This document shows positions 9,109 through 18,135 of a DNA stretch of 40,875 bases, piece after piece (the stretch's first letter is position 1; each line of letters starts with the position of its first letter). Origin of the DNA: Arcobacter sp. CECT 8986. GTDB taxonomy: Bacteria > Campylobacterota > Campylobacteria > Campylobacterales > Arcobacteraceae. The translations under genes were made by a program, and so were the position numbers. The stretch lies in contig NZ_PDKG01000014.1 of the NCBI RefSeq assembly GCF_004116725.1, positions 1 to 40,875 of the forward strand. Direction: 5' to 3'. The notes under the pieces are model-generated. The model worked only from the letters and a program-made list of their open reading frames with translations. It made no database searches and had not been told where the DNA came from.

Positions 9109-10485
9109 TTAATATTTTATTATAAATTCTGATCCTTCATGTATTTTACTTTTCACTTCTAGTTTAAAATTATGTAATGAAAGTATAGAATGGACAATAA
9201 AAAGACCTAATCCAAGAGAGTTATTCCATCCATTTTTTGATACACGATAAAACTTTTTATTTATTTTACTTAACTCATTTTCTTCAATACCAATACCTTT
9301 ATCAATTATACTAATATGAGTACTTGTAATTTTTACTTTTACATCATTTTCTGAATATTTTAAAGCGTTTTCAATTAAGTTTGTAATAACCATCTCCATT
9401 AGTGTCTCATCAACATCTAAAATTACATCTTCACCTTCAATTGAAACTTCATGGTCTTTATATTTATCTTTTAAATCTGATATTACTCTTTTGCAGATAT
9501 TTATCATTGAGCATTTAGTAAAAGTAGTTTGTTGTTTACCTTCTTCTAATTTTAATGATAATCTTAATTTATCAATTATTTGAGTCATTTTATTACCATT
9601 TGATTGAATTTTATTTAAAAATTTCTCTTTCATCGAATCAGGTAAATCAGGATCTGCTAATAGTGTTTCACTATATCCAGAAATAATTGCAATAGGATTT
9701 TTAAATTCATGAGATATTGCAGAAATAATCTCATCTTTTTGTCTATTTGCAAGCTTTAATTTAGCTGTTTGTTTGGCTTTTTGTCTCTCTTTTTTTGAAA
9801 GTTTTTGAGCAACTTTATTTAAAAGTTTTGCAATTTTATCAAACTCTTGCGTATATGTAGAACTAATTTCATAGTTGATTTTTTTATCACTTAAATCAAT
9901 AAGATATTTTAATATTGAATCAGTCTCATTTTTTATTTTTATACTAACAAAATATGTTACGATAAATGCAAGAATTAAAAATATTGTAATGATGGCAATT
10001 ACATGTAGTGATAACTTAATAAAGTTCTTTTGTATCTTATCTGTGTAGTCTGCAAGTCTAATGTAATAAATAGCATTTTGTAGTTTTACTTTTTTTGCTA
10101 CATATAATAGCTCTTTGTCTAATGTTTTTGAGTATCTTATAATCTTACCTACACCATCATATTTAGCATGAATAATTTCATATCTATTTTTGTGGTTTTC
10201 CATTTTTGATTTATCTCTATCACTCTCTACAATTACTACACCATCTTCATTTATTATTGTGATTCTTAAGTTAGTTCTTTTTTTGAACTCTTTTACAACT
10301 TTTTGAATATCAGTAATATTGTGTAAGACTAAAGATATTGAATCTATATTTTGAGATAAATTCTTCTCAATTTGGTCCATGTATATATTTTTAGACCAAA
10401 AATATGTAGTAAAACTAATACTTAAAAAAATTAAAACAAATATAATTCCATATATTCTAAGAAAAAGTTGATGTATTTTTAACAA
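9109..10485 (-). CDS. Sensor histidine kinase of the phosphate locus (PhoR-like role)
   Basis: 458-residue membrane histidine kinase. Two membrane helices (about 11-30 and 158-181) enclose a sensory domain of about 125 residues, expected in the periplasm. A HAMP-like linker and coiled coil follow, then the phosphoacceptor His259 in ISHEFKNP, the N box in LIENALKYS, and the ATP-lid glycine motifs DKGIGI and LGLGLF. The start is TTG, supported by AAGGA upstream, and it overlaps the response regulator by 7 nt. It is last in the pstC-pstA-pstB-phoU-psiE-regulator operon, so control of the phosphate response is the likely job, by position. C. jejuni has an analogous PhosS. Confidence 0.9.
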   Translation of the reverse strand: MLKIHQLFLRIYGIIFVLIFLSISFTTYFWSKNIYMDQIEKNLSQNIDSISLVLHNITDIQKVVKEFKKRTNLRITIINEDGVVIVESDRDKSKMENHKNRYEIIHAKYDGVGKIIRYSKTLDKELLYVAKKVKLQNAIYYIRLADYTDKIQKNFIKLSLHVIAIITIFLILAFIVTYFVSIKIKNETDSILKYLIDLSDKKINYEISSTYTQEFDKIAKLLNKVAQKLSKKERQKAKQTAKLKLANRQKDEIISAISHEFKNPIAIISGYSETLLADPDLPDSMKEKFLNKIQSNGNKMTQIIDKLRLSLKLEEGKQQTTFTKCSMINICKRVISDLKDKYKDHEVSIEGEDVILDVDETLMEMVITNLIENALKYSENDVKVKITSTHISIIDKGIGIEENELSKINKKFYRVSKNGWNNSLGLGLFIVHSILSLHNFKLEVKSKIHEGSEFIIKY

Positions 10486-11153
10486 AAGATATATCCTTCA
10501 CCTCTAATTGATTTTATATACTCTTTAGTTGAGTCTGGATCAATTTTTGCTTTTAATCTTTTAATAGCAACATTTACAGTTTTTAACTTTTTATCAAAAG
10601 AGTCTTCCCAAACAGAGTTTAATAGATGTTCTCTTGATAGTAATATATCTTTGTTTTTAATAAACTCTAAAAGTAAGTCATGTTCAAGGTGTGTTAATTC
10701 AACAGGCTCATCTTCTATATAAAAACGTTTGTTATTAGCTTTATATATAATATCTCTTACTTTTAAAATCTCAACTTCTTTAGATGTTCTTTTTAATACA
10801 GCTTTTACTCTTGCTACTAACTCTTTTAAGTTAAAAGGTTTAGTAATATAATCATCTGCATGACTGTCAAAACCTTCTAAAATATCTTCATCTTTATCTT
10901 TTGCTGTTACATAAATAACTGGGTTGTTATAACCTTTTGATTTTAATTCATTTACAAAAGTTGCACCATCAATTCCTGGAAGATTTCTATCCATTAATAT
11001 TAAATCTACTTTTTCTTCATCTAATATTTGATTTAAAACAGGATTTATATTTAAACATCCAATAGTCTCAAAACCAGCTTTTTGTAAAGTATATTCTAAA
11101 AGTTCTAAGATATCTTCTTCATCTTCAACTATTAATATTAATTTACTTTTCAT
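10479..11153 (-). CDS. OmpR/PhoB-type response regulator of the phosphate locus
   Basis: 224-residue two-domain regulator. The receiver domain (1-120) has the acidic pair in VEDEED, the phosphoacceptor Asp55 in LILMDRNLPG, and Lys105 in YITKPFNLKEL. The winged-helix DNA-binding domain (about 130-224) has LTHLEHDLLLEF, the recognition-helix region KLKTVNVAIKRLKAKI, and the wing IRGEGYIF. It overlaps psiE by 11 nt and the kinase by 7 nt. It is the best candidate to bind the two Pho-box-like repeats ahead of pstS and pstC. Functionally it probably equals PhoB or the Campylobacter PhosR; the assignment rests on context. Confidence 0.92.
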   Translation of the reverse strand: MKSKLILIVEDEEDILELLEYTLQKAGFETIGCLNINPVLNQILDEEKVDLILMDRNLPGIDGATFVNELKSKGYNNPVIYVTAKDKDEDILEGFDSHADDYITKPFNLKELVARVKAVLKRTSKEVEILKVRDIIYKANNKRFYIEDEPVELTHLEHDLLLEFIKNKDILLSREHLLNSVWEDSFDKKLKTVNVAIKRLKAKIDPDSTKEYIKSIRGEGYIFC

Positions 11154-11544
11154 CTTTTTCCTCTTTTAAATCTTCTATAAACTCTTTTTTACCTGGTGAG
11201 TATTTTATAGCAAGTATTCTAAATATAAAGAAAACCATAATTACAACTAATAAAAACAGAATAGTAAAATAATCTTTTTGTGCTTTTGATGTATAAATTA
11301 CAACATCTCTAATTAAAAAGATAATAAAAATATCTATAACAAATCTAAGTCTTAATTTCTCTTTTTTTATAAAATCAGAAATCATCTTCATAACTTCAAT
11401 TATTACAATAAATTCTAACATTAAAACAATTGTTTTTTGAAAATCTAAATTTGCAACCAAAATAATTATAAAGATAACTAATGCTGCTAGAAACTCATAA
11501 TTGTTTTCAAAATAGTTTTTAATTTTTCTTATAGCTTTTTTCAT
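11143..11544 (-). CDS. psiE: PsiE-like phosphate-starvation membrane protein
   Basis: 133-residue integral membrane protein with four predicted helices (about 17-34, 37-56, 70-85 and 91-110) and charged ends. The pattern, with a conserved EVMKMISDF segment after helix 2 and RFVIDIFIIFLIRDVV in helix 3, fits the PsiE family, named for phosphate-starvation induction in E. coli; its biochemical role is unknown. It lies 3 nt after phoU and overlaps the response regulator by 11 nt, so it is part of the operon. The family call is by resemblance and by context. Confidence 0.72.
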   Translation of the reverse strand: MKKAIRKIKNYFENNYEFLAALVIFIIILVANLDFQKTIVLMLEFIVIIEVMKMISDFIKKEKLRLRFVIDIFIIFLIRDVVIYTSKAQKDYFTILFLLVVIMVFFIFRILAIKYSPGKKEFIEDLKEEKDEK

Positions 11545-11547
11545 ATG

Positions 11548-12213
11548 TTATTGGTCTAACTCTCCACCTATGTGAGCAAATATTATTAAATTTGCAATAC
11601 TTGATGCTCTATCTGCACATTTTTCTAATCTTCTTAAACTACTTAATAAATTAAAATAGTCTTTTGAAAGTTCATAGTTATTACTTATTAATTTTAAAAT
11701 ATTTTTTTCTACCATTGCGTATAAATCATCTGTTTTACTCTCTTCTACTAATACTTTATTAAATGACTCTTCTATAATTTTTTCATTGTGTTCATCTAAC
11801 ATGGCAAGAGTAATTTCAAGTGCATTTACAGCAGCTTTTTGTAAAGGAATAGCATATTCTAAAATTGTTGCTTCATCTAACTCTTCTGAAAAAGACTTTC
11901 TAAATGTTTTTATAAAAGTCTTTGAATTAGAACCAGCTCTTACTAATTCGTTTGTAATCTTTAAATAAGAAACCATCTCTCTTAAGTCTTTTGCTTCTGG
12001 CGAATATAAAGCAAGTGTTGCAACAATCATATTATCAATTTCATTTGATCTTGATACTAATTTTTTTAATGATAAATCAATATCTTTTAATAGTGAAATA
12101 TCATGGTCTTTTAAAGCTTTTAATGAGATTTTATTTGCTTCTAAAACAATTTTTCCAATCTGCTTTATCTCATTTCTAATAATCTCTACTCTCTCTTCGT
12201 AAGTTTTTAGCAT
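11548..12213 (-). CDS. phoU: Phosphate transport regulator PhoU
   Basis: 221-residue all-helical cytosolic protein with two PhoU repeats. The family acidic/metal-binding style of motif is seen as DDLYAMVEKNILKLI in repeat two and around NEIDNMIVATLALYSPEAKDLREMV in repeat one. PhoU links Pst activity to the sensor kinase and shuts off the regulon when phosphate is plentiful (known for the family). Its ATG overlaps the pstB stop by one base (TAATG), typical of translational coupling. The position between pstB and the regulator genes fits this role. Confidence 0.95.
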   Translation of the reverse strand: MLKTYEERVEIIRNEIKQIGKIVLEANKISLKALKDHDISLLKDIDLSLKKLVSRSNEIDNMIVATLALYSPEAKDLREMVSYLKITNELVRAGSNSKTFIKTFRKSFSEELDEATILEYAIPLQKAAVNALEITLAMLDEHNEKIIEESFNKVLVEESKTDDLYAMVEKNILKLISNNYELSKDYFNLLSSLRRLEKCADRASSIANLIIFAHIGGELDQ

Positions 12214-13004
12214 TATCCAAATCTCCCTGTAATGTAATCTTCTGTTTTTTTATTGTTTGGGTTTACAAATATAGTCTCTGTTTCATCATACTCTATAAGT
12301 TTTCCAAGATGAAAAAATGCAGTATAATCTGCAACTCTTGCTGCTTGTTGCATATTATGAGTTACTGTTATAATCGTATAGTCTTGTTTTAACTCTAACA
12401 TTAAAGCTTCTATTTTTTCTGTTGAAATTGGATCTAATGCAGAAGTTGGCTCATCCATTAAAATTACATCAGGTTTTACAGCAATTGTTCTTGCAATACA
12501 TAATCTTTGTTGTTGTCCACCAGATAGTGAAGTTCCTGGTTCATTTAATTTATCTTTTACTTCATCCCAAAGACCAGATTTTTTAAGTGATATTTCTACA
12601 AGCTCATCACACTCTTTTCCTTTTTTTACTAAACCATGCTTTAATGGAGCATAAGCAACATTGTCATAAATAGATTTAGGAAAAGGATTTGGTTGCTGAA
12701 ATACCATTCCAATTTTTTTTCTTACACTAACTTCATCAACATCTTTGTCATAAATATTTTTCTCATCAATAATAATACCACCATCAATTTTTACATTAGA
12801 GATGAGGTCATTCATTCTATTTAGGCATCTCAAAAATGTAGATTTACCACAACCAGATGGACCAATTAGTGCAGTGATTTTATTTTTATATAAATCAACA
12901 TCAATATTGTGTAAAGCGTGGTTTTCTCCATACCAAAGATTTAATGAATCAATATGTATTTTTACTTCTTCTTGTTTTTTTTCTATACTCATTTTTCCTA
13001 CCAT
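12213..13004 (-). CDS. pstB: Phosphate ABC transporter ATP-binding protein PstB
   Basis: Cytosolic ATPase of the high-affinity phosphate importer PstSCAB. Walker A is GPSGCGKST (48-56), the signature is LSGGQQQRL, and Walker B is [13 protein letters not shown], followed by the switch histidine in [14 protein letters not shown]. The reading frame opens at 13004, overlapping the pstA stop by 7 nt. An alternative ATG four codons later (12992) follows an AGGA only three bases upstream; either start is possible. The gene is coupled to phoU downstream. Confidence 0.97.
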
Positions 13005-14185
13005 TTAACTTCAAATTTTTTTCTTAGATATATTGCAAGTGCATTAAGGAATATTAAAATACTTAATAACACTATAATTCCTGCGGCTGTTTTTTCTACA
13101 TACATTCTTTCTGGCATTCCTGCCCATGTAAATATTTGTGCTGGCATAACTGTTGCAGCTTGTGTAACCATTGATGGTGCATCAGGAATAAATGCAATCA
13201 TTCCCACAATAATAAGTGGAGCTGTTTCTCCCATAGCTTGAGCAAGTCCAATAATTGAACCTGTCATAATTCCAGGAAAGGCTAAAGGTAATACATGGTC
13301 TTTTGTTACTTGAATTTTTGTAAGTCCTAATCCATATCCAGCTTGTCTTATAGAATCAGGAACACTTCTTAATGCAGCTCTTGAACTTACAATTATTATA
13401 GGAAGTGTCATCAATGCAAGTGTTAAACCTCCAACTAAAGGAGAACTTCTTGGTAAACCAAATAAATTAATAAATATTGATAATCCTAAAAGACCAAATA
13501 ATATTGAAGGAATTGCAGCAAGATTATTTATATTTACTTCAATTATTTGAGTAAATTTATTATCTTCTGCAAACTCCTCTAAATAAATTGCTGTCATAAC
13601 ACCAATAGGAAAAGCTACTAGCATTGTTATTATTAATGTCAAAATTGAACCAACCATCGCTGATTTTAATCCTGCATATTCTGGTGTTTTAGAATCTCCA
13701 TTTGTAAAGAAAATTTTGTTAAATTTTAATTGAACATCACCAAATGCTTTCATATCATCAACTAAAGCTCTATCTTTTCTTTTTAATTTATAATAATGAC
13801 CTTTTAAATATTGATCAACTTGGTCATCAGCTAAAACCCAAGTTTTTATGGTTTTGCCTAAAAGTGTTGGGTCTTTTTTTATCATATTTGGAACTTCTCT
13901 TATCCATGCTCTTGAAACAATATTTCTATATTGTCTATCTACAGATTTTCTATAGTTTTTAATTGATTCATTTGAATAATGAACATCTACATGTAAATAA
14001 GTTTGTTTAAAAGCTGGCATACCTTTTGAAACAATATCCGTTAAAAAAAATGCTAAAAATGCAATAGAAAAGATTAAAGATGCTAAAGTAAATGCTTTAA
14101 ATCTTTTTGCACTTTTATGTCTTTTTTTTAGTGTTGCATCATAAAAAGGGTTATTGTTTTTATCTTTTTTGTTCTTTAAAATCAT
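12998..14185 (-). CDS. pstA: Phosphate ABC transporter permease PstA
   Basis: 395-residue inner-membrane permease. A first helix at about 34-52 is followed by a periplasmic insert of roughly 110 residues (DUF3333 type, rich in Lys and Asp) that is found in long PstA proteins. The permease core (about 165-390) has the coupling-helix motif around [21 protein letters not shown] that contacts PstB. It starts with ATGA overlapping the pstC stop and ends overlapping pstB, so the three subunits are made together. Confidence 0.95.
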
Positions 14186-15111
14186 AATGTATTCACTTTA
14201 TATTTTTCTTTGAATTTTTTTATCATTACTAATGAAATTATGTTAAGTAATAAAGTAACAACAAATAAAACAAGTCCTAATGCAAATGCTGAAAGAGTTG
14301 CTGGTGAATTAAAAGCTTGGTCTCCAACTAAAGAATCAACAATTCTAACTGTTACTGTTGTCATATCTTCTAAAGGATTAAAAGATAAATTTGGTCTAAG
14401 TCCAGCTGCCATCACAACAATCATAGTTTCACCTAAAGCTTTTGATAATCCAAGTAATGTTGCAGATATAATTCCAGGCATAGCAGAAGGTAAAACTATA
14501 TTTTTTATAGTTTCTCCTTGAGTTAATCCTAGTCCTAAAGATGCTTTTCTTTGACTGTCTGGAACAGCTCTTATTACATCATCACTTAATGAAGATATAA
14601 CAGGAATAATCATAATTCCCATAACTATTCCTGAAGCAAGTGCAGAGTTAAAAGAGGCTTCTAAACCAACTGATGAAGCCAGTTTTACAACAAAAGGTGC
14701 AACTGTAATTGCTGCAAAAAATCCATACACAACAGTAGGAATTCCTGCAAGTATTTCTAGTAGAGGTTTTAAAGCATTTCTTAAATTTGTAGATGCATAT
14801 TCACTCATATAAATTGCACTTCCTAATCCAATTGGAATAGCAACTGACATTGCAATAATAGTGATTACAAAAGTTCCAGCAAAAATTGGAACAGCACCAA
14901 ATTTACTACCTATTATTCCTGGTGACCATTCAGTTCCTGTAATAAAGTACCAAAAACTTCTTAGGTGGAAAAATTCTATTGCTTCAAACAAAATTGAAAA
15001 GAGAATTCCAAAAGTAGTTAAAATAGATATAATAGAAGCTATGATTAAAAGTGCTTTTATTATCTTTTCTTTTAACTCTCTTGACCTATTTCTTGTCTCA
15101 AAGGGTGTCAA
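14182..15111 (-). CDS. pstC: Phosphate ABC transporter permease PstC
   Basis: 309-residue inner-membrane permease with six predicted helices. The GSAIYMSEYAS segment, the GIPTVVYGFFAA stretch and the coupling motif RKASLGLGLTQGETIKNIVLP are typical of PstC. Translation starts at TTG, with AAAGG about eight bases upstream; the residues before the first helix fit the family. It is the first gene of the long operon that runs to the sensor kinase, and a Pho-box-like promoter lies 34-63 bases before the start. The partner pstS lies further upstream, separated by a c-di-GMP gene. Confidence 0.95.
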   Translation of the reverse strand: MTPFETRNRSRELKEKIIKALLIIASIISILTTFGILFSILFEAIEFFHLRSFWYFITGTEWSPGIIGSKFGAVPIFAGTFVITIIAMSVAIPIGLGSAIYMSEYASTNLRNALKPLLEILAGIPTVVYGFFAAITVAPFVVKLASSVGLEASFNSALASGIVMGIMIIPVISSLSDDVIRAVPDSQRKASLGLGLTQGETIKNIVLPSAMPGIISATLLGLSKALGETMIVVMAAGLRPNLSFNPLEDMTTVTVRIVDSLVGDQAFNSPATLSAFALGLVLFVVTLLLNIISLVMIKKFKEKYKVNTL

Positions 15112-15144
15112 TACTTAAACCTTTATTTATTAAATTTTTACAAT

Positions 15145-15174
15145 TTTATAAAATAATGGTTACAAGAAGGTTAC
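15145..15174 (-). promoter_or_regulatory. Pho-box-like promoter of the pstC operon
   Basis: On the minus strand two exact hexamers GTAACC are separated by TTCTT (15158-15174), giving 11-bp direct repeats. Seven bases later comes a -10 element TATAAA (15145-15150). The same arrangement lies before pstS. The repeats overlap the stop codon of the upstream c-di-GMP gene (15171-15173). The spacing matches Pho boxes, where two regulator subunits bind on one helix face in place of a -35 box. Binding by the operon's own response regulator is inferred. Confidence 0.8.
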
Positions 15175-16922
15175 ATCAAAACTGAACTACCTAATGGAAT
15201 ATCCATCTGTTTAGAGGCTTTTTTTATTTTACCAAGTATACTATCAAGATTTTTTGCATTTGAATGTGGTGATATTTCTACAATAGCAGATGAGACACTA
15301 AGTAGATTAAACTCTCTTACTACTCCAAATCTATCTTTTGTTTTTATATATCCATTTTGAATATCTTCTTCATCATACAAACTGCTTACACTATCTTTAA
15401 AAAGTTTTTGAATCTCATCTATTTTTTTATAAACCTCTTCATAAGATAGATTTTTATATCCAACAAAAAAATCATCACCACCAATATGCGCGATTAAGGA
15501 ACTTTTATTTAACTCTTTTTGTAGTAGTTCTGAAAATATTAAAATAGCTCTATCTCCTTGTCTAAAACCATAATAATCATTGAAAGGTTTAAAATCATTA
15601 AAATCAAAATAGACCATATGTGTTATGTCATCTTTTTTAAAACTATCTTGAATAAATTTTTCAATTTGATTATTTCCTGGAAGCTTTGTTAGTGGATTTT
15701 GATTTTGTGCAATTTCGATATTTCTTTTATAAGATAAAGATAGAAGATTATTTACATTAATAAATCCTAAATAACAATTATCTTTTGTTACAAAGATTCC
15801 TTTTGATTCATTACCTCTTAAATTAAACATCTCTAATGTTTTATCAATACCCCAAGATACTTCAATAGATAAAGATGATTTTATATATGAGCTTAATTTT
15901 GAACTAAAAGATTTATTTTGTGCAAGTGATATTCCATATTGAGAGTATGATAGTTTTTTTATATCTACTTCATAAATTACTCCTACAAGTGCATTGTCTT
16001 CATCTATAATAGGAACAAATGTATTTGTTGGATACTCTTTAAAATATAAAAATAAATCATACAAAGAGGCATTTATACTTAAAGGTTCAATAAATTGAAT
16101 ATATTTTTGCTCTATTATATTATTTGTATGTTGTCTTTTGTCATTTTTAAACAAATTAGGAATATTTTCATATGAACTTTGTATATCTAAGATATTTAAA
16201 GATGGTTTTGCAATCAAAAAACCTTGAATAAAATCAATATTTATATCCTTACAAGTATAATATTCTGCAATATCTTCAATTCCTTCGGCTATTACTTTTA
16301 TCCCCATTACATGAGCCATATCTACAATTGAAGAACAAAAAAGTTTTTTTCTTGAATCTTTATTTATATTTCTAATAAAAAATCTATCTAGCTTGATATA
16401 GTGAGCTTCACTTAAATATAATAACTCTAATCCTGAAATTCCAGTTCCAAAATCATCAATTGCAATATGAAAACCTTCATTCTTATAATTATTTAGGATT
16501 TTATTTATCATCAATTTATTTTGCATTGTTCCATTTTCTGTTATTTCAAAACAAATTGATTCTTCTTTTATATTTAACTCTTTTAGAATTAAAGATGTAT
16601 TTCCTTCTTTAAAATCAGGCATAAAAAGAAGTCTATTATCTAAATTATAAAAAAGTTTTAAATTCTCTATTTTTATATGATTGAATTTTTCAAATGCTTT
16701 TTTTCTTAAAATCAAGTCAACTTTATATAAAACTTGTTTATCAAAAAAATTATCAAACAAATCAGGAATGGTTTTAAATCCTAAATTTTGATATCCTCTT
16801 ATTAATGCTTCAACAGCATAAATTTTACCAGTTCTTGTATTTACAATGGGTTGAAATGCATAATCTAGTTTATCTACAAGTAAATATAATTCTTGATTTT
16901 CATCTATTTTGGCAGTGGACAT
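15171..16922 (-). CDS. c-di-GMP protein: EAL + CBS pair + GGDEF
   Basis: 583-residue cytosolic protein without membrane segments. The EAL domain (about 15-250) keeps its signature VEALIRG (38-40), the Glu in FEITEN, the DDFGTG metal motif, the Lys in IKLDRFF and the Glu in AEGIED, so phosphodiesterase activity is plausible. Two CBS motifs follow (about 270-400), a ligand-sensing module. The GGDEF domain (about 410-575) has GGDDF near 480 instead of GGDEF/GGEEF, and no RxxD inhibition site is seen, so cyclase activity is doubtful. ATG has AAAGG upstream. It sits between pstS, which has its own terminator, and pstC, whose promoter overlaps its stop codon. Confidence 0.9.
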   Translation of the reverse strand: MSTAKIDENQELYLLVDKLDYAFQPIVNTRTGKIYAVEALIRGYQNLGFKTIPDLFDNFFDKQVLYKVDLILRKKAFEKFNHIKIENLKLFYNLDNRLLFMPDFKEGNTSLILKELNIKEESICFEITENGTMQNKLMINKILNNYKNEGFHIAIDDFGTGISGLELLYLSEAHYIKLDRFFIRNINKDSRKKLFCSSIVDMAHVMGIKVIAEGIEDIAEYYTCKDINIDFIQGFLIAKPSLNILDIQSSYENIPNLFKNDKRQHTNNIIEQKYIQFIEPLSINASLYDLFLYFKEYPTNTFVPIIDEDNALVGVIYEVDIKKLSYSQYGISLAQNKSFSSKLSSYIKSSLSIEVSWGIDKTLEMFNLRGNESKGIFVTKDNCYLGFINVNNLLSLSYKRNIEIAQNQNPLTKLPGNNQIEKFIQDSFKKDDITHMVYFDFNDFKPFNDYYGFRQGDRAILIFSELLQKELNKSSLIAHIGGDDFFVGYKNLSYEEVYKKIDEIQKLFKDSVSSLYDEEDIQNGYIKTKDRFGVVREFNLLSVSSAIVEISPHSNAKNLDSILGKIKKASKQMDIPLGSSVLM

Positions 16923-17001
16923 TTATAGCCTTTAGTAGTTATATATATAGATCTTTGATTATCTGTTCGCGTAAATAATAAAAGACCTACATATATAGCC
17001 T

Positions 17002-17030
17002 AAAAAGAGGGAAAACCTCTTTTTATTTTA
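17002..17030 (-). terminator. Terminator after pstS
   Basis: A 9-bp perfect stem, AAAAAGAGG with CCTCTTTTT (17002-17010 and 17016-17024), overlaps the pstS stop codon. The T-rich arm gives the run needed on the minus strand. It would make pstS largely a single-gene transcript, allowing the binding protein to be made in excess over the permease. Confidence 0.8.
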
Positions 17031-18072
17031 ATGTATCAAGTGAAACTTTTTCTCTTTTTTCTACTGATGCTCTAATTGCATCTCTTCTATCTTTTGGTAA
17101 AGCAATTAAACCAATTTCACCTAAAATACCATCATTCCCAATCATAGTATCACTCATAAATAAATTGATGTACTCTTTCATAGCAGGAACATCTTTTTCA
17201 TGTGAGTTTTTAATATAAAAATATAATGACCTAGAAATTGGATATTCTCCTGAAGATATTGCATCTGGAGTTGGCATAATACCATTTACTTTTGCACCAA
17301 TTAATTTATCTTCATTTTCAGCTAAAAATGAGTAACCAAATATACCAAATGCATTTTTGTTTTTTGTAAGTTTTTGAACTATGATATTATCATTTTCACC
17401 CGATGGAACATATACCCCATCTTGTCTGATTTTATGATATTTTTTATATGCTTTATATTTATTCTTGTCTTTATTATATAAAGATGTATACTCTGGCATT
17501 TTTTTGAAAGTAGCTTTTAATACCATATCTTCAAAAGCATCTCTTGTTCCAGATGATTTAGGAGGTCCATATACAATTATTTCTCTATTTGGAAGTGAAG
17601 GGTCAATTTCAGACCATTTTTTATAAGGATTATCAATTAATTTTCCATTTTTACCTGGAACTTCTGCTGCAACAGCTAAAGCTAATTGTTTTTTAGTAAC
17701 AGAAAATGGTTTGTTAACATTAGATTGTGCAAATGCAATACCATCAAATCCAATTACAGCTTCTGTAATACTAGTAACACCATTTTTCTCACACATTTTG
17801 AACTCTTTTGCTTTCATTCTTCTTGAAGCATTAGTAATATCTGGTGTATTTAAATCATTACCTGCACAAAATAGTTTAAGTCCTCCTCCTGAACCAGTTG
17901 ATTCAACCACAGGTGTTGGATAGTTTGATGTAGCACCTAACTCTTCTGCAACTGCTGAAGCAAATGGATAAACAGTTGATGAACCTACCATTTTAATTTG
18001 ATCTCTTGCACTAAGACTAACTGTTAATGCTGCACTTGCTAATAGGGCAAATGTAGTTTTTCTAATTGTCAT
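17023..18072 (-). CDS. pstS: Periplasmic phosphate-binding protein PstS
   Basis: 349-residue binding protein of the high-affinity phosphate importer. A signal peptide covers about 1-22 (cleavage near LSA-RD). Phosphate-binding loops are visible: GSSTVYPF, ESTGSGGGLK, ITNASRRMK and the SSGTRDAFEDMV segment. ATG has a GGAGAG site. Its promoter has a Pho-box-like repeat pair and a terminator follows directly. Unlike many loci, an EAL-CBS-GGDEF gene stands between it and pstC. Confidence 0.96.
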   Translation of the reverse strand: MTIRKTTFALLASAALTVSLSARDQIKMVGSSTVYPFASAVAEELGATSNYPTPVVESTGSGGGLKLFCAGNDLNTPDITNASRRMKAKEFKMCEKNGVTSITEAVIGFDGIAFAQSNVNKPFSVTKKQLALAVAAEVPGKNGKLIDNPYKKWSEIDPSLPNREIIVYGPPKSSGTRDAFEDMVLKATFKKMPEYTSLYNKDKNKYKAYKKYHKIRQDGVYVPSGENDNIIVQKLTKNKNAFGIFGYSFLAENEDKLIGAKVNGIMPTPDAISSGEYPISRSLYFYIKNSHEKDVPAMKEYINLFMSDTMIGNDGILGEIGLIALPKDRRDAIRASVEKREKVSLDTLK

Positions 18073-18105
18073 ATTTATCTCTCCATAAAAGTTTGATAAA
18101 GAAAT

Positions 18106-18135
18106 TGTATAACTAGTTGATTACATTTTGGTTAC
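18106..18135 (-). promoter_or_regulatory. Pho-box-like promoter of pstS
   Basis: On the minus strand GTAACC and GTAATC are separated by AAAAT (18119-18135), again with 11-bp periodicity, and followed after exactly seven bases by TATACA (18106-18111). The ATG lies about 34 bases further. The match to the pstC promoter in both hexamers and both spacers, with unlike spacer sequences, argues for a real operator. C. jejuni's reported PhosR box also has two pentamers at 11-bp spacing. Confidence 0.8.

Follow-up and report, generated by a model that had tools for sequence, protein, structure and literature searches.

A Pho-box-like direct repeat with a GTAAYC core before the pst genes of an Arcobacter and its predicted phosphate regulon

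Pho boxes and the pst locus

Pho boxes consist of direct repeat units of 11 nt whose consensus varies by species, with the core CTGTCAT in E. coli and GTTCACC in Streptomyces (available excerpt of PMC4415409). In C. jejuni, the phosphate-responsive two-component system PhosS/PhosR, described as homologous to E. coli PhoR/B, controls the pst genes and phoX (available excerpts of PMC3197622, PMC6250842 and PMC9449129). The sequence of the PhosR box was not found in a literature search that included the excerpts of these three papers, and no paper on a Pho box of the kind described here in Arcobacter was among the matches listed, which consisted of titles and the beginnings of abstracts and covered few subscription journals.

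Exploring the window, i.e. the whole analyzed stretch of 40,875 nucleotides from Arcobacter sp. CECT 8986, we obtained Pfam matches to PBP_like_2, two permeases, an ABC ATPase, PhoU, PsiE, a response regulator and a kinase, and the gene names assigned at this locus hold (Table 1). Along the run from pstC (15111) to the kinase (9109), neighbouring genes overlap or are separated by a few bases, indicating that they are likely to form a single operon. The claim of the original prediction that the controlled operon encodes an OmpR-type regulator was borne out, as the regulator gene belongs to the gene run behind the pstC box, a position from which autoregulation is expected. The regulator carries the domains of PhoB, a receiver domain (PF00072) and an OmpR-type winged helix (PF00486), both above cut-off, and scores 173.6 bits against the PhoB equivalog model TIGR02154, below the cut-off of 296.2; the kinase scores 141.8 against the NCBIfam PhoR equivalog, for which the cut-off is 334.2. 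The stem-loop behind pstS could set pstS apart from the downstream genes. A homologue of the EAL gene is found between pstS and pstC in many relatives, and in relatives G002, G013, G018 and G030 this gene is preceded by a box of its own, hinting that phosphate may control c-di-GMP via the EAL-GGDEF gene.

Table 1. Features of the pst locus in the window
Feature	Position	Strand	Basis or remark
Pho-box-like operator before pstS	18119..18135	-	GTAACC-AAAAT-GTAATC, exact; held-out profile R2 E 3.3e-5
-10 of pstS promoter, TACAAT	18104..18109	-	conserved slot in 47 aligned promoters
pstS, phosphate-binding protein	17023..18072	-	Pfam PBP_like_2; TIGR02136 148.2 bits, under 206.6 cut-off
Stem-loop directly 3' of pstS	17001..17025	.	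consensus scan only; possible terminator or attenuator
EAL-GGDEF protein between pstS and pstC	15171..16922	-	Pfam; possible regulon member
Pho-box-like operator before pstC	15158..15174	-	GTAACC-TTCTT-GTAACC, exact; held-out profile R2 E 1.9e-5
-10 of pstC promoter, TAAAAT	15143..15148	-	15 nt past second repeat's G; conserved slot
pstC permease, TTG start	14182..15111	-	TIGR02138 281 bits, above 196.45 cut-off
pstA permease	12998..14185	-	TIGR00974 229.5, above 193.45; DUF3333
pstB ATPase	12213..13004	-	Pfam ABC_tran; operon position
phoU-like regulator	11548..12213	-	PhoU domain; TIGR02135 83.9 bits, under 130.25 cut-off
psiE-like protein	11143..11544	-	PsiE 30.4, above 23.9
OmpR/PhoB-type response regulator, presumed box binder	10479..11153	-	Response_reg and Trans_reg_C; co-occurrence with box
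Sensor histidine kinase, presumed partner	9109..10485	-	HisKA and HATPase_c; sCache_like just under its cut-off

The repeat element and its conservation before pst genes

The pstC and pstS promoters were predicted to share GTAACC-N5-GTAAYC-N7-TATAnA on the minus strand, and this is literally true at both. The pstC box overlaps the stop codon of the upstream EAL-GGDEF gene. Scanning the window with up to 2 mismatches returned 4 hits versus 2.36 expected, which is not significant, and the exact hits were the pstC and pstS sites only. Given that statistics from the window alone are weak, we rely on evidence from the whole genome and from relatives.

In the 2.65-Mb genome, GTAACC-N5-GTAAYC has 3 exact matches while the backward pattern has 0. 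The matches lie before pstS, before pstC and, at C9:28050 (L001), where a gene for a transporter of the PHO4 family (pit) starts. Across 60 genomes, i.e. this one and 59 relatives, there were 53 exact matches versus 21 backwards. The excess was confined to the family of the window, whose 37 genomes (own genome included) held 48 matches versus 14 backwards; the other 23 genomes of the order had 5 versus 7. Of the 48 family matches, 33 precede pstS, pstC, the EAL gene or the phoU operon, 2 precede olsF, 4 are at pit and 9 are elsewhere. Among these nine, two precede chemoreceptor-like genes of G021 and one precedes a small ORF of G016 in the olsF/Cj0069 region; six (one each in G007, G019, G020 and G031, two in G026) were counted as probable chance matches. 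The motif is thus not frequent at random genome positions, as judged by the genome, family and profile counts, and the observation of a shared element is correct and far beyond chance.

To compare pst upstream regions among relatives, as the original prediction had proposed, we collected 58 regions upstream of pstS or pstC from 30 genomes (the loci of 29 relatives, the window and two further loci), and the motif proved conserved. Counting pairs of 4-mers with no prior motif, we found that GTAA-N7-GTAA was the commonest, being present in 47 of the 58 promoters, whereas the best pair of any kind reached 14-20 in 20 shuffled sets. With a matrix from which the tested locus was left out, the same number of promoters scored 9.6-30.6 bits and the remaining 11 scored -3.7 or less. 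The first G of the box lies 57-65 bp upstream of the aligned start codon in 45 of 47 sites, and G, T, A and A are invariant in both repeats of all 47 aligned sites. Four of the 11 misses are pstC genes close behind pstS with no EAL gene between (L128, L134, L135, L136), where a second promoter may be unneeded, three are pstC genes with a start probably set too far inside (L139-L141), and the last four comprise pstS and pstC from G037, pstC from G043 and pstS from G012.

The aligned promoters also share a -10 element at fixed spacing. Its placement as TATAnA needs correction: the conserved hexamer, TAnAAT, starts 2 nt farther, at alignment columns 30-35 and N9 after the second repeat. The mean match to TATAAT is 4.94 of 6 at this slot versus 3.19 at the position first proposed. 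Each of positions 1, 2, 4 and 6 of the hexamer is conserved in 46 of the 47 promoters; at position 5, 31 promoters have A and 16 have C. From its location, the box would act in place of a -35 element.

Genome-wide sites and the predicted regulon

To search the genome we used profiles trained on pst promoters alone. Profile R1, built on sequence only from the 47 pst sites, ranked pstS and pstC on top. Because both sites belong to the R1 training set, we built a second profile, R2, from 38 sites with every sequence of the window's genus left out. The eight best R2 sites genome-wide were those at pstC, pstS, C4:92046, C12:14450, C6:9976, C2:155658, C1:265531 and pit, the last being the weakest (E 0.049). 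C4:92046 precedes olsF, the gene of an ornithine lipid synthase (826.7 bits, above the equivalog cut-off of 620); C12:14450 precedes a gene for a calcineurin-like phosphoesterase, LpxH-like only below cut-off, which is followed by a patatin gene; C6:9976 precedes a Cj0069-family gene (286.3 versus a cut-off of 150); C2:155658 precedes a gene whose product matches HAMP below cut-off; and C1:265531 precedes a second pstS (TIGR00975, 337.2 versus 205), with the next ORF read as pstC. At these five genes the distance from the first G to the start codon is 38-64 bp. The Cj0069-family protein (L332 3865-4953 (-)) is DUF6815 and ATP-grasp-like. A further site, C2:171492, had an E of 0.046 with R1 but 0.51 with R2 and lies 271 bp from the next ORF; it was rejected as chance.

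olsF genes have been reported in epsilonproteobacteria (available excerpt of PMC12186959). OlsF was above cut-off in 33 of our 60 genomes, and we examined 30 loci. A site scoring at least 15 was found 43-59 bp upstream in 20 of 23 loci within the family and in 0 of 7 outside it. One family miss, L428, resulted from choosing the wrong ORF, R1 listing a site at the right place in that genome; the wrong ORF had also been chosen at L423, outside the family, where a second look revealed no such repeat. The best site before the phosphoesterase gene lies exactly 38-39 bp upstream in 18 of 20 family loci and scores at least 15 in 12 of 20. As for the Cj0069-family gene, 9 of the 16 family loci above the family cut-off score at least 15, the window's genome among them. 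The ORF frame was wrong in L401, L423, L428 and perhaps L469, and L466, L474, L475 and L476 had no ORF; such loci are counted as misses or stand outside the family counts. A control on 741 ORF starts, of which 86 scored at least 15 and 80 of those lay at 40-85 bp, was discarded as an unfair background, its loci having been picked for boxes.

PlcP is induced by phosphorus starvation and is central to lipid remodelling in marine bacteria (available excerpt of PMC4796936). The phosphoesterase with the patatin gene behind it may be a candidate phospholipase of PlcP type. At L460, L461, L463, L464 and L467 the phosphoesterase gene is divergent from one for a GT4 glycosyltransferase, and the region between the two contains a box-like site on either strand (10-22 bits on one, 13-21 on the other), an arrangement resembling plcP-agt lipid remodelling clusters.

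It could be argued that the pst promoters are alike merely by descent from one promoter and that the repeats are functionless. Many of the compared sequences are indeed orthologous promoters of one family and hence not independent, but conservation outside the repeats and the -10 is slight. In addition, the motif stands before unrelated genes on which no profile was trained, i.e. olsF and the phosphoesterase gene and, in one or a few relatives each, genes for PhoX, PPK2 and GntR regulators that are PhnF-like (under the cut-off for PhnF), and the homologous pst operons of L040 and L041 carry another core. Sites were also seen before genes for chemoreceptors, a DeoR regulator and a GT4 glycosyltransferase, again in one or a few relatives each. 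The sites at non-homologous genes refute this explanation in the main, and we regard it as having hardly any chance of being right.

The pit gene of the window's genome belongs to the PHO4 family (340.8 bits in Pfam versus 33.7), and as it falls below the cut-offs of the NCBIfam models for both CysP and PitA, phosphate is its likely, though not certain, substrate. The 60 genomes yielded 48 pit genes in 46 genomes, of which 30 loci were examined. Scoring only the strand opposite to pit, we found the box core in 22 of the 30; on the forward strand no locus matched the box pattern. By a stricter count, 18 of the 30 have RTTAC-N6-RTTAC in the direction of pit, 17-31 bp before its start codon. A TAnnAT-like hexamer lies upstream of the box in all 18, exactly 20 bp before it in 16, and a further repeat adjoins the start codon in 9, this repeat being the box itself in L282. 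The inverted box lies between the presumed -10 of pit and its start codon, hence a regulator bound there should block pit, and the simplest reading of this arrangement is probably repression by roadblock.

Alternatively, the box might be the promoter element of a divergent gene of ~70 codons, repression of pit being at most a side effect. In 20 of the 22 pit boxes, TA...T occupies the slot 15 nt past the second G, and a related small ORF (relatedness judged by eye) starts 239-267 bp from the pit start codon in 11 of the 30 loci; in the window's genome it is at L001 1748-1966 (+). This slot is, however, close to the TAnnAT of pit itself read the other way, and the small ORF of the window's genome is far from pit and has no match to a Pfam family. 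We consider the alternative rather unlikely.

The regulator, core variation and known systems

To relate the box to the regulator, we called a regulator ortholog at E≤1e-40 and a strong site at an R1 E≤1e-3. A strong site was present in 35 of the 47 genomes with the regulator and in 1 of the 13 lacking it (Fisher p 1.9e-5, a value inflated by kinship, by the training of R1 mostly on regulator-bearing genomes and by the setting of the 1e-3 threshold after the table was seen). The box thus co-occurs with the regulator, and their co-variation is imperfect. The single exception on the side of the missing regulator is G032, which has sites and an assembly that is 84% complete. More tellingly, G012 has pstS and pstC, no regulator match at E≤1e-40 and no box; similarly, pst genes are present in G043 (of which only pstC was read), G048, G049 and G054, which lack a regulator match at this level and, as far as their sequences were read, a strong box. 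The regulators of G048 and G049 are 35% identical, and TTTACA-like repeats with a period of ~11 bp are visible by eye before pstS in both (L258, L259), perhaps constituting another class of Pho box. In ten genomes of other families (G041, G042, G044, G047, G051, G052, G053, G055, G056, G058), where the regulators are 48-60% identical, sites scoring 20-36 bits precede pst genes or phoU or lie near them, some with one degenerate repeat. The stretches read in G040, G057 and G059, with regulators of 55-58%, contain no site above 16 bits. G050 carries GTTAC-N6-GTTAT before both pstS and olsF, and G037, whose regulator is 54% identical with nearly the same recognition helix, carries TGTCAT-N5-TGTCAC before pstS. 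An Asp-to-Asn switch in the recognition helix (TVNVA here versus TVDV) was ruled out as the cause of GTAA versus GTCA, since the box is of the TGTCA type in G037, which has N, and GTAA boxes occur in G052, which has D.

These comparisons also bear on whether the element, though a true phosphate-regulon operator, is bound by another OmpR-family paralog and not by the regulator of the pstC operon. A first look found up to 131 candidate stretches for the regulator in one genome, so paralogs are likely to exist, and the TGTCA-type box of G037 alongside a near-identical recognition helix is in line with a different binder. Against this, box presence tracks the ortholog of the operon's own regulator, and regulator and kinase follow pst in the loci of 26 of 29 relatives. 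Moreover, the box is kept where pstCAB is gone: in G002, G005 and G018 (L232, L233, L234) it still precedes phoU-psiE-regulator-kinase, with G005 retaining pstS at the locus and G002 and G018 having a further box in front of the EAL gene. Binding by a paralog is in our view improbable.

We are thus left, with considerable confidence, with an operator of a phosphate-starvation regulon which the operon's own regulator is predicted to bind, thereby activating the pst genes and blocking pit. When phosphate is scarce, the kinase would phosphorylate the response regulator, two molecules of which would sit head-to-tail on the two 11-bp repeat units at the usual location of the -35 element. The bound regulator would then recruit RNA polymerase to the TAnAAT -10 at its fixed spacing, switching on pstS and the pstC-pstA-pstB-phoU-psiE-regulator-kinase operon, with positive autoregulation as a consequence. 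Very probably, olsF, the phosphoesterase gene with the patatin gene behind it and the second pstS would be switched on as well, and possibly also the Cj0069-family gene and that of the weak-HAMP protein. At pit, the regulator bound to the inverted box would block the transporter gene.

The result is a precise, searchable phosphate-starvation operator for a group that has no published one among the literature matches listed. The regulon it predicts comprises phosphate uptake, shutdown of pit, phosphorus-free ornithine lipids, the phosphoesterase, genes of unknown function and perhaps a c-di-GMP enzyme; phosphatases, regulators of phosphonate type and chemoreceptors join it in one or a few relatives. 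The operator also offers a natural series for studying how the DNA core of an OmpR-family regulator changes. The core is GTAAY in Arcobacter-group genomes and in several further families; G050 has GTTAY and G037 has GTCAY.

We also assembled a contrast set of 80 contigs with a related pstC, overlapping in part with the 60 genomes. Strong GTAAYC boxes were found in 7 of the first 9 contigs. The other two, L040 and L041, are titled as a gill symbiont and as a gammaproteobacterial assembly, respectively, and carry TGTCA-type boxes, although their PstC proteins are 80% and 73% identical to that of the window; as both are metagenome bins, their assignment is uncertain. None of the remaining 71 contigs has a GTAAYC site above 18 bits, which is weak evidence because many of these contigs probably differ in base composition; TGTCAY-N5-TGTCA is matched exactly in 14. 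The pstS promoter of L040 (titled methanotrophic gill symbiont) has TGTCAC-N5-TGTCAC in the same orientation as here, followed by TATACT starting 15 nt past the second G. Its geometry is therefore common to the Arcobacter-group promoters while the core is different. It is possible that the pst operon, closely related versions of which occur on contigs with gammaproteobacterial titles, was transferred horizontally and its operator re-tuned in L040 and L041. On a broader and more speculative view, which we put forward tentatively, the Campylobacterales might have a Pho-box class of their own in which GT-N-A-Y drifted at one base with the recognition helix remaining mostly near-constant, the Pst operon being re-tuned to each host's regulator and the inverted box shutting off pit.

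Compared with the described systems, the element departs from a narrow, E. coli-type Pho box, for the window's core is GTAAYC and not CTGTCAT or TGTCA, and it has the features of a PhoB-type Pho box broadly defined: two direct repeats with an 11-bp period in 47 of 58 pst promoters, a position before phosphate-acquisition genes (pstC, pstS, a second pstS and pit among the top eight of R2) and a fixed -10 spacing with four positions kept in 46 of 47. As had been predicted, the repeat period is that of the E. coli boxes, with their 11-nt units, and GTAACC is distinct from their core, CTGTCAT (both after the available excerpt of PMC4415409); within GT-N-A, the third base is A here and C in the E. 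coli-type box. The Streptomyces coelicolor operator similarly consists of direct repeat units with a species-specific core and differs in its bases, GTTCACC (same excerpt). With C. jejuni PhosS/PhosR, as described in the available excerpts, the locus would share two-component control of pst genes. The original prediction was correct in its observation and, in essence, in its interpretation. Taken together, the repeats appear to constitute a Pho operator whose architecture is the known, PhoB-like one and whose core differs, a new variant with a well supported predicted regulon.
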